This document shows, piece by piece, positions 6,743 to 31,941 of a stretch of DNA of 64,000 nt. Numbering within the stretch: position 1 is the stretch's first letter; the number at the start of each line of letters is the position of its first letter. The stretch covers positions 1-64,000 of the forward strand of contig NZ_BBJB01000066.1 of assembly GCF_016584665.1 (NCBI RefSeq), given 5' to 3'. The notes beneath the pieces were generated by a model. It ran no database searches. It saw only the letters and a program-made list of their open reading frames with translations, and had not been told where the DNA came from. Both the position numbers and the translations under genes were made by a program. The DNA is from Pseudanabaena sp. lw0831. GTDB taxonomy: Bacteria > Cyanobacteriota > Cyanobacteriia > Pseudanabaenales > Pseudanabaenaceae.

Positions 6743-7528
6743 ATGTATAACAGTTTCTACTCATCTCACGATCGCATTTATAACTTTGAAGAACTAGCTT
6801 TCCCCACTGAAGGCGTGGAATTTGAACTAAACGATAGCCCCGCTAAGCGTCCATATATTGCCTTCAATATGGTATCTAGTGTCGATGGGAAAGCGACAAC
6901 CTATCAGGGAAAACTTACAGGCTTAGGCTCGCGTCCCGATCGCCTATTAATGCAAAGACTGCGATCGCAATTTGATGCTGTTTTAGCTGGAGGCACGACG
7001 CTACGCCAAGATGCCTTTATCCCTACCGTACCTCCTGAACTAATAGAGGAACGCCAAAAAAACTTTTCACAGCCTCAACCCGTCGGCATCGTGATTAGTA
7101 ATTCGGGTAATCTACCTAGCGAACATCGTTTTTGGAACGCTGGAAAAGATTTACGAATTGCTTTGCTAGGACAAGATACTTCCGTTGAACCTTGGCTCGA
7201 TGAGAAAGCGCAAATTTTTCGATTTCCCACCAAAGATCACCAAATTGACCTAAAGCAAGTATTGTCAATGCTTTTTGAGCAACTTGGCATTCAGCGTCTT
7301 TTAGTGGAAGGTGGCCCCGCCCTAAATTATTCGCTAATCTCTCAAGGTTTAGCTGATGAGTTGTTTTTGACGTTATCTCCTCATATAGTTGGCGGAGCTG
7401 ACAATATGACCGTTGTTGGCGGTTCAGGTTATGGGCTTGGTGGTACTGATTTGCCCAATCTCAAGTTGCGATCGCTATATCACCATGAATCAGAGTTGTT
7501 TTTGCGCTATCAATTTACGACGATATAA
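6743..7528 (+). CDS. RibD C-terminal domain reductase (pyrimidine/dihydrofolate reductase fold)
   Basis: The 261-residue protein consists of one RibD_C/DHFR-like domain. Markers are AFNMVSSVDGKATTYQGK near residue 41, GSRPDRLLMQRLRSQFDAVL with AGGTTLRQD, LLVEGGPALNYSLISQGLAD near residue 190 and LSPHIVGG. These motifs bind NADPH and the phosphoribosylamino-uracil type substrate of riboflavin synthesis. No deaminase domain is fused to it. It could be the separate reductase of the riboflavin pathway or a related NADPH reductase; the sequence alone does not decide. It converges on the MoaB-like gene across a shared hairpin. Confidence 0.8.
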   Translation: MYNSFYSSHDRIYNFEELAFPTEGVEFELNDSPAKRPYIAFNMVSSVDGKATTYQGKLTGLGSRPDRLLMQRLRSQFDAVLAGGTTLRQDAFIPTVPPELIEERQKNFSQPQPVGIVISNSGNLPSEHRFWNAGKDLRIALLGQDTSVEPWLDEKAQIFRFPTKDHQIDLKQVLSMLFEQLGIQRLLVEGGPALNYSLISQGLADELFLTLSPHIVGGADNMTVVGGSGYGLGGTDLPNLKLRSLYHHESELFLRYQFTTI

Positions 7529-26730: not shown

Positions 26731-26798
26731 ATGGCTAAACCAACACTTTGCGCTTCGGAAATTGGTAAGAGTAAGGCAAAGAATGCTTTTAATTTATC
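26731..26798 (+). pseudogene. Truncated N-terminus (MAKPTL-CAS-E-G type) cut by the IS element
   Basis: ATG opens MAKPTLCASEIGKSKAKNAF, then NLS, before the IS1-family left end is reached (the frame ends after 5 further codons inside the IS). The beginning resembles the short helical leader x-KAS-x-x-G-x-x-x-AK-x-AF of cyanobacterial NACHT or NB-ARC proteins. That likeness is weak and from memory. Confidence 0.3.
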
Positions 26799-27576
26799 GG
26801 CGTTGCACAAATGAAAGATGAATCAAGAAAATGAAGGAATCGATTTGTACTTAAGATAGTGAATTAACAGACGAATTGAATACCTCAACATTTCTTCCGA
26901 TTTTGAATAGCATAAAGTTTTTCTGTGCAATCTGGCTAAATAATGTCTCAGTCTAGTATTTTCACCCTCAACTCTAGTCATATAGGTTTTGCTGATAATT
27001 TGATCCTCCGAGTTGATAAACATTTTGTAGACACAGTAGCCATCAGTAACCCAGAAATAGCATTGCCACACCTTAATCAATGTTCACAAGTTTTCAAAGG
27101 TTTGGCTACTCCTATCTCCTAATACCCAAGCCAATATGCCTTGACTAAAATGATTCACCGCAGTCCATAGCCAAATCAAGTTTTTTTTGACCCAACAAAA
27201 GTCTGGAGTTCATCTAATTCACCAACTTCAGGAATAGTTTCAATGGGGGGATGTTCTGGTAATTGCTTTGCTGCCTCCTTAACCCAGTTGATGACTGAGT
27301 TGTGACTAACATCGGTACATCTCTCAATTTGTCTAAATCCCATGCCGTTGCAGTACATTTTTAGGCATATTCTTTTGACATCTTGCGAATATCCAATCAC
27401 TGAGTAGTTATCAATGAACTGACGACCGCAATCAGCACAAATATGATTTTGTTTGTCTCCTCGTTTCCCATTTTTACGAATATGTGTTGAACCACACTTT
27501 GGACATTTCATTGTTTTTCATTGCTTAAACTCGTTATCTTTATATTTACTCATTCATCCTTCATTTGTGCAATGCC
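26799..27576 (-). mobile_element. IS1-family insertion sequence
   Basis: The 778-bp element is bounded by imperfect inverted repeats GGCGTTGCACAAATGAAAGA (left) and GGCATTGCACAAATGAAGGA (right, complementary strand). Size and gene content match IS1. No clean 8-9 bp target duplication is visible (flanks aatttatc and gctttttt). Confidence 0.88.
26823..27511 (-). pseudogene. IS1-family transposase (InsA/InsB, frameshift product) with an in-frame TGA
   Basis: InsA (27511-27176) has the zinc-finger CPKCGSTHIRKNGKRG...CADCGRQF and helix-turn-helix of IS1. At a run of eight A (27188-27181) a -1 slip leads into InsB, giving KKNLIWLWTAVNHFSQGILA, then WVLGDRSSQTFENL. There a TGA (27086-27084) stands where IS1 proteins normally carry an aromatic residue or Trp. 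The frame continues as TLIKVWQCYFWVTDGYCVYK, then MTRVEGENTRLRHYLARLHR (DDE core with the catalytic Glu in EGEN), to residue SIPSFS. Apart from the TGA it is complete. Confidence 0.8.
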
Positions 27577-27711
27577 GCTTTTTTTATGTACTGGCAGAAT
27601 TTGAAAACGGTTGCCTTGCCAATCAAGTTCGATGGGATTTCCTGTGGTGGCGATTTCTTCTAGGAGGTTTATGAAGTTGGTGGTGAGTTTGTCTACTGGT
27701 ATGGTTTTCAT
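27577..27711 (-). pseudogene. Phd/YefM-like antitoxin truncated by the IS element
   Basis: ATG at 27711 starts MKTIPVDKLTTNFINLLEEI, then ATTGNPIELDWQGNRFQILP and VHKKS. This is the Phd-like N-terminal domain that binds DNA and toxin. After codon 45 the frame enters the IS end and stops at 27552-27550 with an alien tail (GIAQMKDE). No toxin gene is recognised on the far side of the IS. Confidence 0.65.
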
Positions 27712-27716
27712 ATATT

Positions 27717-27853
27717 CAATTACGAATTAGGAATTACGAATTACGAGTGGGAGGTAGGTCCTAGGGATTTGGGGTATGGCTTAGGAGTTATAATATTTTA
27801 CCAATTTACGATTTTGCAATTCGTAATTGATAATTCGTAATTCGTAATTAATT
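27717..27853. repeat. TTCGTAATT short-repeat clusters flanking hsdMS
   Basis: Two clusters of the 9-mer AATTACGAA/TTCGTAATT occur at 27717-27747 and 27818-27853, just before the HsdMS start codon. Single or double copies recur at 30587-30604, 31942-31963 and 31972-32012, so they punctuate the accessory block. Confidence 0.7.
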
Positions 27854-27857
27854 AAAA

Positions 27858-30365
27858 ATGTTAGACACTGAAACTAAGCGCCGTATTGATACTGCTCGTG
27901 ATATTTTGGTGGGGAAGGTTCCTGATCCGAAGTCGCAGGTGGAACAGATTACGATCGCACTCATCTATAAGTTTATGGATGATATGGATGCGGAGGTGGA
28001 GGAGTTGGGGGGCGATCGCACTTTTTTTGCGGATTCATTTGCGAAGTTTGGTTGGGGGCGGTTGATGAGTCCGTCGGTCGGTGGGCATGAGTTGCTGAGC
28101 CTTTACAGTGAGGGGATTAGCACGATGCCGCAGAATGCGGGGATTCCTGCGTTGTTTCGAGATATTTTTAAGAATGCGTATCTGCCTTATCGCGATCCTG
28201 AGACGCTGAAGAGTTTTTTGAAGGTGATTGATGGGTTTACCTACGATCATTCGGAACGGTTGGGGGATGCGTTTGAGTATTTGCTGTCGGTGTTGGGTTC
28301 GCAGGGGGATGCGGGGCAGTTCCGCACGCCGCGCCATATTATCGATTTTATGGTGGAGATTTTGCGTCCGCAAAAGGGTGAGGTGATTCTCGATCCTGCC
28401 TGTGGTACGGCGGGTTTTTTGATTTCGGCGTATAAGCATATTTTGCGGACTAATCAGGATGCTCAGGGGAATAGTACGCTTACGCCCGATGAGAAGGGGC
28501 TGATGGCGACTAATTTTAAGGGGTATGATATTTCGCCCGATATGGTGCGGTTGTCGTTGGTAAATCTCTATTTGCATGGGTTTAAGAGTCCGCAAATTGT
28601 GGAATACGATACTTTGACTTCTGAGGATAGATGGAATGAGTTTGCTGATGTAATCCTTGCGAATCCGCCGTTTATGTCGCCGAAGGGTGGGATTAAGCCC
28701 CATAAGCGGTTTTCGATTAAGGCAAAGCGGAGTGAGGTTCTGTTTGTGGACTATATGGCGGAACATCTTTCGCCAAGGGGTAGGGCGGGGATTATTGTGC
28801 CTGAGGGGATTATTTTCCAGAGTCAGACTGCTTATAAGGATTTGCGTAAGATGTTGGTTGAGAATTCTCTGGTGGCGGTGATTTCGCTTCCTGCTGGGGT
28901 TTTTAATCCTTATTCTGGAGTGAAGACTTCGATTTTAATTCTGGATAAGTCTTTGGCGAAGAAGACGGATAAGATTGCGTTTTTTAAGGTAGAAAATGAT
29001 GGTTTTGGTCTAGGCGCTCAAAGGCGAGAGGTTTCTGGGGGGCAGCTTTCACAGGTTCAAGTCGAGTTAGTGGAATATTTGCAAGCTGTTCGCAAGCAAG
29101 TTTCGACTGACGATCTTGAGTTTTCGCTTGGGTTGATTGTGCCGAAAGAGAAAATTGCGGCTAATGGTGATTATAATTTGAGTGGGGAAAGGTATCGAGA
29201 GACAAGCTTTGTTAGTAGTCATTTTCCAATGGTTGAGCTAGGTGATGTTTCCGAAGTAACATCTAGCAAAAGAATACTTGCAGAAGAATATGTTCCATCT
29301 GGTATTCCATTTTATCGAACTAAAGAGATAGTTGAGTTAAGCAAAGGTCACGAAATTACACTCGAACTGTTTATTTCTGAAGAAAGATTTCAGTCGATTA
29401 AATCTCGCTTTGGATCACCCGCAAAAGGTGACTTGTTGATCTCAGCAGTTGGTACAATTGGGATCTCTTGGATTGTTTCGGATGATCGGGAGTTTTATTT
29501 TAAAGATGGAAATCTTATTTGGGTAAGAAATTTAGAAAATATTGATCCTCAATTTCTTAAATATTGTCTTGACTCTATTTTTACTAATGGAATTGAGCAT
29601 ATTGTATTTGGCGCTGCATACAAAGCATTAACAATTGAGAAATTAAAGCAATTTAAAATTCCTTTACCCCCGATCGCAATACAAAAAGAAATAGTCACCG
29701 AAATCGAGGGCTACCAAAAAGTCATCAACGGCGCTCGTGCAGTCATTGATAATTATCGACCTCATATAGCGATCGATCCTGATTGGGAAATGATGGAAAT
29801 TGGCGAAATCTGCAACAAGATTCAATATGGTTTATCTGAGCCACTTAATACAGTAGGTCTAGGTTTTAAGACATTTCGCATGAATGAACTTGTTGAAGGA
29901 AGATGTATTGATCGAGGTGACATGAAATGTTCTGAAATATCTGATGCTGAGTTTGAAAAATATAGGCTTAATATTGGTGACATTCTTTTTAACCGCACAA
30001 ACAGTTTTGAACACGTTGGGCGCACTGGCGTTTTTGACTTGCAAGGTGATTATTGTTTTGCCTCATATCTAATTCGCTTGATAATCGATCAGGAAAAAGC
30101 TGATCCATTTTTTGTTAATGCCTTTATGAACTCTAAGAGTTTTCAGCAAGGTATAAAACAGTTTGCAAGTCGTGCGATTGGACAATCAAATATTAATGCA
30201 AAGTCCCTTGCAAGTTATTCAATCCCAGTTCCACCGATTGAAATCCAAAAAGCGATAGTAGCTGAAATCCAAGCCGAGCAAGCCCTTGTTAATGCGAACC
30301 GAGAACTAATCGAGAGATTTGAGAAAAAGATACAAACTGTTTTGAATAGAATTTGGGGCAATTAG
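27858..30365 (+). CDS. Fused type I methyltransferase-specificity protein (HsdM-HsdS)
   Basis: The 835-residue protein begins with the HsdM helical N-domain and a SAM-dependent N6-adenine methyltransferase. Motif I is DPACGTAGFLISAYKHI (about residue 174), motif IV ILANPPFMSPKGG (about residue 273), with the type I marker GQFRTPRHIIDFMVEIL. From about residue 455 it is an HsdS with two target-recognition domains, each followed by a conserved helix (IPLPPIAIQKEIVTEI and IPVPPIEIQKAIVAEI). Fusion of M and S is unusual; normally they are separate subunits. No HsdR is present here. Coding in the M half is G-rich in third positions while the S half is AT-rich. The protein should methylate a bipartite site; without R it may be an orphan methylase. 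Confidence 0.9.
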   Translation: MLDTETKRRIDTARDILVGKVPDPKSQVEQITIALIYKFMDDMDAEVEELGGDRTFFADSFAKFGWGRLMSPSVGGHELLSLYSEGISTMPQNAGIPALFRDIFKNAYLPYRDPETLKSFLKVIDGFTYDHSERLGDAFEYLLSVLGSQGDAGQFRTPRHIIDFMVEILRPQKGEVILDPACGTAGFLISAYKHILRTNQDAQGNSTLTPDEKGLMATNFKGYDISPDMVRLSLVNLYLHGFKSPQIVEYDTLTSEDRWNEFADVILANPPFMSPKGGIKPHKRFSIKAKRSEVLFVDYMAEHLSPRGRAGIIVPEGIIFQSQTAYKDLRKMLVENSLVAVISLPAGVFNPYSGVKTSILILDKSLAKKTDKIAFFKVENDGFGLGAQRREVSGGQLSQVQVELVEYLQAVRKQVSTDDLEFSLGLIVPKEKIAANGDYNLSGERYRETSFVSSHFPMVELGDVSEVTSSKRILAEEYVPSGIPFYRTKEIVELSKGHEITLELFISEERFQSIKSRFGSPAKGDLLISAVGTIGISWIVSDDREFYFKDGNLIWVRNLENIDPQFLKYCLDSIFTNGIEHIVFGAAYKALTIEKLKQFKIPLPPIAIQKEIVTEIEGYQKVINGARAVIDNYRPHIAIDPDWEMMEIGEICNKIQYGLSEPLNTVGLGFKTFRMNELVEGRCIDRGDMKCSEISDAEFEKYRLNIGDILFNRTNSFEHVGRTGVFDLQGDYCFASYLIRLIIDQEKADPFFVNAFMNSKSFQQGIKQFASRAIGQSNINAKSLASYSIPVPPIEIQKAIVAEIQAEQALVNANRELIERFEKKIQTVLNRIWGN

Positions 30366-30642: not shown

Positions 30643-30903
30643 ATGTCACCTAATAATCAGAGCCAACTGATAGAAGTAATCAATCAGCTTGATGATCAGC
30701 AAATACCCCTTGTATTGCAATTTATATCATCTCTTCAGAAAAATATTCCTACTGCCCCAGCCTCAACTAAAACAGTATTAGAGCGTATGGGTGGTTATCC
30801 TAAACACTTTTTAGAAGGATCAGGAGATTTATCAGAGAGAAGCGTCCGCAAAAAAATAATTGCCGAAAAGATTAGAGCAAAACATCAAGCAAGACATGAA
30901 TAA
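30643..30903 (+). CDS. Antitoxin preceding a PIN-domain toxin
   Basis: The 86-residue protein (MSPNNQSQLIEVINQLDDQQ, IPLVLQFISSLQKN) has a helical N-terminus of the kind seen in small cyanobacterial antitoxins and a basic C-terminus (VRKKIIAEKIRAKHQARH). It lacks a recognisable DNA-binding ribbon. It overlaps the PIN gene by eight bases, which together with size and order supports its role as the antitoxin. Confidence 0.65.
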   Translation: MSPNNQSQLIEVINQLDDQQIPLVLQFISSLQKNIPTAPASTKTVLERMGGYPKHFLEGSGDLSERSVRKKIIAEKIRAKHQARHE

Positions 30904-31318
30904 ATATCGCCTAATCTTAATTGACACTGGAATAATCGTTGCTTTTTACGATCGCAAAGACAAACACCACCAACAAGCGATTAAATTTTTCAGTACCTGC
31001 ACCAGCCAACCCATTACCACAGTCGCCTGTGTTACAGAGGTTTTATGGCTACTCGCACCAAATATCAAAGTTCAAAACGAGTTTCTATCTGTTTTATTCA
31101 AGCAAGCCATTCTATGTGAACACTTGCAGCCATCAGACTATCAAAGAATCCAAGAACTTAACACCACCTATCAAGATCTACCCGCAGACTTTACCGATTT
31201 GTCACTAATTGCGATCTCTGAAAGACTAAACATTGCAGCGATCGTCACATTAGACAGTGACTTTGATGTTTATCGCCGTTATCGTAAACAACCATTTGAA
31301 AGAATATTTTTACCATAG
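30896..31318 (+). CDS. PIN-domain (VapC-like) toxin
   Basis: The start was placed at ATG 30896 (MNKYRLILIDTGIIVAFYDR); an upstream start at 30860 would overlap the antitoxin further. The four acidic PIN residues are visible: D10 in LIDTGI, E46 in CVTEVLWLL, D99 in ADFTDLSLIAI and D117/D119 in VTLDSDF. These bind Mg2+ for RNA cleavage. Length 140 is usual. The toxin looks intact. Confidence 0.85.
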   Translation: MNKYRLILIDTGIIVAFYDRKDKHHQQAIKFFSTCTSQPITTVACVTEVLWLLAPNIKVQNEFLSVLFKQAILCEHLQPSDYQRIQELNTTYQDLPADFTDLSLIAISERLNIAAIVTLDSDFDVYRRYRKQPFERIFLP

Positions 31319-31352: not shown

Positions 31353-31610
31353 ATGCCGATCGCGCAAATTGAAACCCTTATTCGTTATGTCACTGATGCA
31401 GAAGGCAAACCAACCGATGTGCTTGTCCCTCTAGAACTTTGGCAACAGCTAATCCATTCCTTAAATACCGATAGCACTAGCGGACTAGCTTTGATTGACG
31501 AACAAGAACCCAAAGAACAAATATTAGCCGACTTACAAGAATCCGTCAGACTCGCCGCCGCAGGACAAACATTCCCAGTATCACAACTATGGGAAGATGC
31601 AACAGCATAA
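31353..31610 (+). CDS. Antitoxin of a RelE-type pair
   Basis: The 85-residue acidic protein (LIRYVTDAEGKPTDVLVPLE, then LWQQLIHSL) shows the beta-hairpin plus helix pattern V-T-D-x-x-G-K-x-x-x-V-L-V-P-L-E-x-W common in cyanobacterial RelB/Phd-like antitoxins. The C-terminal tail (QEPKEQILADLQESVRLAA) would wrap the toxin. It lies 35 bp after the PIN toxin and five bases before the RelE-type start. Confidence 0.7.
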   Translation: MPIAQIETLIRYVTDAEGKPTDVLVPLELWQQLIHSLNTDSTSGLALIDEQEPKEQILADLQESVRLAAAGQTFPVSQLWEDATA

Positions 31611-31614
31611 ACCT

Positions 31615-31941
31615 ATGATCGAAGTTCGCTTTACTTTACCCTTCATCCGCCGACTAAAATCACTAACCAAACGTTATCGAAAAATCCAATCTGACATACA
31701 GCCAATAATCGAACAGCTACAAAATGGGAACCTTATCGGCGACCAAATCTCTGGTCTAGACTTCCCCATTTTTAAAGTTCGAGCCAAAAACAGTGATATT
31801 CCCACTGGCAAAAGCGGCGGTTATCGCGTTATCTATCAAGTGGTTTCACCTGAATTAATCTTACTTCTACTCATCTATGCAAAATCAGATCAAACAGACG
31901 TGAGCCTAGACGAAATTAAAGACGCTATTGGTAAGGCTTAG
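31615..31941 (+). CDS. RelE/HigB-family toxin
   Basis: The start ATG 31615 (MIEVRFTLPFIRRLKSLTKR) follows an earlier in-frame ATG at 31597. The 108-residue product has a RelE-fold helical start, LQNGNLIGDQISGLDFPIFKV and GGYRVIYQV with the conserved Arg, then ILLLLIYAKSDQTDVSLDEI at the C-terminus. These are the marks of ribosome-dependent mRNA interferases. The upstream antitoxin completes the pair. Confidence 0.85.
   Translation: MIEVRFTLPFIRRLKSLTKRYRKIQSDIQPIIEQLQNGNLIGDQISGLDFPIFKVRAKNSDIPTGKSGGYRVIYQVVSPELILLLLIYAKSDQTDVSLDEIKDAIGKA

Follow-up and report, generated by a model that had tools for sequence, protein, structure and literature searches.

A fused hsdM-hsdS gene of Pseudanabaena sp. 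lw0831 is very probably part of a complete two-protein Type I restriction-modification system whose hsdR lies across an IS1 contig junction

The window, which is the whole 64,000-nucleotide stretch of DNA analysed here and lies on contig C66 of the host assembly, carries on its forward strand an open reading frame at 27858..30365 that encodes an 835-residue fusion of HsdM and HsdS. The M part, residues 1-450 (27858..29207), has the DPACGTAGFL and NPPF motifs of a gamma-class N6-adenine methyltransferase, both intact and conserved across a 21-member family alignment. Pfam matched N6_Mtase to residues 133-450 (E 8e-51), and PADLOC matched MTase_I to residues 2-451 (E 5e-95). The linker between M and S, residues 391-450 (29028..29207), is 38-87% identical even among close relatives.

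The S part, on the same strand, contains two target-recognition domains (TRDs). In the 835-residue chain, Pfam found Methylase_S in two stretches (E 4e-28, the best at 458-620), and PADLOC found Specificity_I at 458-627 and 644-812. Based on the Pfam match and on comparison with relatives, TRD1 was assigned to residues 458-620 (29229..29717). It is followed by a central conserved region at residues ~621-641 (29718..29780; 80-100% identity among relatives), by TRD2 at residues 642-810 (29781..30287; PADLOC, 23-28% identity to relatives), and by a distal conserved helix at residues 801-835 (30258..30362; 94-97% identity). An AlphaFold model of low overall confidence (pTM 0.40) predicted helices at 606-632 and 794-833. 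By both structure and sequence, the best relatives of the first half are solved HsdM subunits and those of the second half solved HsdS subunits. The fusion thus combines the HsdM-type N6-adenine methyltransferase of a Type I restriction-modification (R-M) system with its two-TRD HsdS-type specificity part, in which the TRDs vary and the helices are conserved. It is a real, intact gene, as the first-pass annotation had read it: the reading frame and the domain matches all describe a single chain of M and S with two TRDs.

Two toxin-antitoxin (TA)-like pairs follow on the forward strand, also as first annotated: an 86-residue putative antitoxin with a PIN-domain protein (30643..31318), and a RelN-like antitoxin with a RelE/ParE-like toxin (31353..31941). 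The RelN-like antitoxin is syntenic with L009:12564-12821, in the corresponding locus of Pseudanabaena sp. SR411. The intergenic sequence on the 5' side of the fusion, at 27713-27854, consists of AATTACGAATTACG-type repeats. The same type of repeat appears in translated form in the M-S linkers of the fusions of G008 and P. cinerea (L011), where it reads as NYELRITNYEL-like sequence.

We also compared the composition of the two halves of the gene. The shift in third positions that had been noted between them was confirmed: M has a GC3 of 0.52 and S one of 0.27, and G3 is 0.44 versus 0.13. The same step was found in every close relative with which the gene was compared (SR411, P. cinerea L011 and G008), at ~0.50 versus 0.22-0.31, and HsdR has third positions that are G/T-rich and C-poor, as in M. 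Since the step is common to these relatives, it is a family trait and marks no recent event in this strain; a recently acquired foreign S half, as composition had suggested, was therefore rejected. Recombination of the S half was borne out on other grounds. Among close Pseudanabaena relatives, M is 96-98% identical up to residue 390 and the central and distal helices of S are 80-100% identical, while the TRDs are 23-34% identical. The exception is TRD1 of P. cinerea L011, which is 100% identical to that of the window over 111 aligned residues (97.6% at the DNA level); TRD1 of SR411 and G008 is about 33% identical. These alignments indicate that the variation in the S half is TRD cassette exchange, which is normal for Type I specificity genes.

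HsdR was sought on contig C66 with the ResIII family and with the cognate HsdR, and neither search gave a match there. The statement that no restriction gene lies beside the fusion thus holds for this contig, but not for the genome. A search with the HsdR of SR411 revealed an intact gene at C3:785-3355(-), encoding 856 residues, that is 89% identical over its full length to the linked HsdR of SR411. The C3 protein matches ResIII and HSDR_N_2. In an alignment of 18 family members, neither its nuclease residues (D67, E82, K84, Q96 and Y100) nor its Walker A and DEAH helicase motifs vary. The genome therefore holds the third element of a Type I system, an HsdR with a nuclease and an SF2 translocase, which in relatives is linked to the M and S functions. 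Another candidate, C6:71725 (802 residues), was rejected as the partner: it is ~27% identical to the HsdR of the family and has its own HsdM homologue nearby, at C6:68182. Besides the system described here, the host genome has Type I loci from other families, at least two of them, and one more HsdM homologue; the matches are on C14 (M at 348, R at 2787, S at 6793), C6 (M at 68182, R at 71725) and C77 (M at 77685).

To place the fusion among its relatives, a protein query was run against one genome per species. At least 572 relatives were found, and the best-scoring 80 were kept, a choice that is biased towards intact fusions. Nearly all of these 80 are full-length fusions, and they come from many phyla. 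Using the host HsdR as the query, we found an HsdR upstream and on the same strand in 76 of the 80 loci, separated from the fusion by a median of 367 bp; the four others have at most 1251 bp of upstream sequence before the contig edge. The upstream HsdRs of the 76 loci are 58-89% identical to the C3 protein, except for that of L074 (32%). A second substantial HsdM-like match near the fusion occurred at a single locus of the 80. Of the Pseudanabaena matches, the best two have the gene order HsdR, TA genes, M-S fusion. Among 58 related genomes, a high-identity fusion is present in four (the host, G000, with G001, G005 and G008), and an HsdR of 87-100% identity is present in exactly the same four. 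In G001, G005 and G008, 0.8-2 kb separate the two genes.

The first-pass annotation had suggested that the fusion could be an orphan, epigenetic methylase or else what remains of a once complete system, and a genome search for a partner was among the checks that it named. The absence of HsdR from contig C66 speaks for such a reading. Against it stand the intact HsdR of the same family in the genome, which adjoins the other half of the IS1 insertion lying upstream of the fusion (see below), and the linkage of R and the fusion in essentially all relatives. Both findings that the annotation had named as weakening its orphan and mosaic reading were made: a co-occurring HsdR, and a composition step shared by every close relative. 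The gene content refutes an orphan or a remnant, and we now give such a reading a very low probability. The fusion looks orphan because a junction in the contig, located at an IS1 copy, separates it from HsdR.

In some P. cinerea sequences, a decaying fusion stands next to an intact HsdR. The fusion is broken at about residue 562 on G001:C106 (L011:10001-11701) and on C12 (L139); on C12, a small ORF that resembles a four-helix bundle replaces the TRD2 region.

The junction lies upstream of the fusion, at an IS1-family element of 778 bp on the reverse strand (26799..27576). Its two flanks belong to two different insertion sites. On the right, the element is bordered by the 8-bp target duplication GCTTTTTT (27577..27584) and interrupts a VapB-like antitoxin gene on the reverse strand, of which the N-terminal part (MKTIPVDKL...) is at 27577..27711 and the C-terminal part at C3:43-152. 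The first 42 bases of contig C3 are this IS1 end, and the flank there carries the identical 8 bases, GCTTTTTT. Joining these flanks and removing one copy of GCTTTTTT restored, in frame, a 78-residue antitoxin gene. Its homologue in SR411, L009:9618-9854(-), is located between HsdR and the fusion. On the left, the duplication is AATTTATC (26791..26798). It recurs at the end of contig C82 (C82:31231-31248), where it adjoins the right IS1 end. Here IS1 interrupts a NACHT NTPase gene, whose N-terminal 22-23 codons are in the window (26731..26798, forward strand) and whose remainder is on C82; joining the AATTTATC flanks of the window and of C82 restored its reading frame. Judging from these duplications and restored frames, contig C66 links one half of an IS1 insertion in the antitoxin gene (right) to one half of a different IS1 insertion in the NACHT gene (left).

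Two other full IS1 copies are traversed by the assembly, at G000:C112:59429-60218 (L131) and G000:C67:13792-14576 (L132). Neither has matching duplications at its own flanks. Rather, the duplications match crosswise between the two copies (GATAAATG and ATTTTGTT), and the crosswise joins restored two ORFs, one of 296 codons that is Rpn/PD-(D/E)XK-like and one that is TPR. The flanks are thus mismatched in all three of the copies that the assembly traverses (C66, C112 and C67), and further joins in the host assembly appear suspect in light of the C112 and C67 copies.

Comparison with other genomes was used to reconstruct the locus. The histidine-kinase gene of C3 and the radC of the window adjoin in most of the genus. 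The anthranilate-phosphoribosyltransferase-like gene to the left of the window's IS1 lies hundreds of kb away in complete genomes. In G017, a relative that has no such R-M system, the C3 block and the block to the right on C66 abut, with ~207 bp between them, which places the R-M island between a 539-residue gene and radC. By sequence, a single island of ~8.8 kb lay between the 539-residue gene and radC and comprised HsdR, a YefM/YoeB-type TA pair, the antitoxin gene and the hsdM-hsdS fusion; the restored reading frame puts the IS1 insertion in that antitoxin gene. The TA content of the gap between hsdR and the fusion differs among the relatives L009, L011 and L138, the types seen being YefM/YoeB, the antitoxin MKTIPVDK and, in G008, a GNAT-like pair.

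The junction could have arisen in the assembly or in the cell, and hsdR and the fusion are both intact either way. If two chromosomal IS1 copies had recombined, hsdR would have been moved off and both genes would work in trans. The IS1 copies, which are ~99.9% identical, would be good substrates for recombination, the contig runs through a full IS1 copy, and the intactness of both genes is compatible with a real split. However, the swapped duplications at C66, C112 and C67 would require at least two independent exchanges, and contigs C3 and C82 each terminate within IS1, which is what an assembler that mispairs the flanks of a repeat would produce. We consider a real split unlikely, though it keeps an appreciable share of the probability. 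A misjoin at the IS1 repeat is the more likely origin of the junction and the simplest explanation, because every traversed IS1 copy has swapped flanks.

Based on the abovementioned data, we read the gene as the modification-and-specificity component of a complete two-protein Type I R-M system that consists of HsdR and an HsdM-HsdS fusion, and the contig junction as likelier a misjoin than a rearrangement; from the comparisons of genes and flanks, we put the probability of this reading at about 0.93. On this reading it is an ordinary, complete Type I system with fused M and S, and its kind is widespread and probably already catalogued.

The layout M-TRD-TRD also resembles that of Type IIB chains such as AloI or BcgI, in which one chain has M and two TRDs, and PADLOC matched REase_MTase_IIG to residues 451-831. 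A Type IIB/IIG-like enzyme is nonetheless highly unlikely: the chain starts with an HsdM-like N-terminus, its 835 residues contain M and S domains with no nuclease domain fused to M, and its partner is a separate, translocating HsdR.

As a Type I system, the enzyme may work as follows. Each TRD would recognize one half of a bipartite target, and the M part would methylate adenine. HsdR, with its PD-(D/E)xK nuclease and its translocase, would dock on M and cut DNA in which neither strand is methylated. What is unusual here is the stoichiometry. Classical Type I enzymes are R2M2S. Since M is joined to a two-TRD S and the locus has no separate hsdM, the second methylase of an M2S-like core would most likely be provided by a second M-S chain; an M fragment released by proteolysis would be a less likely source. 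At pTM 0.40, the AlphaFold model does not support a placement of M relative to S, and we therefore drew no stoichiometry from it. One conceivable reading is that a natural two-TRD system of R and fused M-S, lacking free HsdM, assembles unlike all characterized Type I enzymes: with two chains per target, the two spare TRDs could hold a second site, and methylase and restriction complexes would bridge two targets. We regard this as doubtful.

The M, S and R domain families are the same as those of classical Type I enzymes such as EcoKI and EcoR124I. The classical M:S ratio is 2:1, whereas that of the fused chain is 1:1 by construction. An engineered EcoKI MS fusion was restriction-proficient in vivo but depended on additional HsdM in vitro, and the study that described it named systems with fused M and S "Type IMS" (PMC3510504); a second engineered fusion, CC398-1 MSfus, was also active (PMC6158711). 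In both of these, as here, HsdM runs in frame into an HsdS with two TRDs, and HsdR is a separate protein. The system has the composition of Type IMS: an HsdM-HsdS fusion, with one TRD or two, and a separate HsdR. The engineered proteins are laboratory fusions, in contrast to the natural and widespread family of the window, whose loci are almost devoid of free hsdM. In the literature searched we found engineered MS fusions only and no natural ones; REBASE, which was outside the search, may well list some. Type ISP enzymes, in which R, M and a single TRD form one chain (PMC3510504), likewise have Type I activities fused into fewer chains. Unlike the single-chain, one-TRD LlaGI, the window's system has a separate R and two TRDs.

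A one-TRD form occurs in E. coli, in a system on an IncF plasmid (NZ_CP116482.1). Its gene order is the same, and its HsdR and M part are 61% and 59% identical to those studied here. The plasmid fusion differs in having 677 residues, with M and one TRD, and in being followed by a TrlF-like ATPase gene. A dimer of its M-single-TRD chain would give the classical core of two M and two TRDs.

The call of an orphan methylase is thus corrected, and the case illustrates that the flank duplications of IS elements can expose contig junctions that are not ancestral. A large natural family displays, in one-TRD and two-TRD forms, the architecture that had been built artificially as "Type IMS", and how a 1:1 chain supplies two methylase domains becomes a directly testable question. 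The E. coli locus (L141, 3406-10954), with its HsdR, M-single-TRD and TrlF-like ATPase genes, is on a conjugative plasmid, and 51 of the 55 matching plasmid records are from E. coli.
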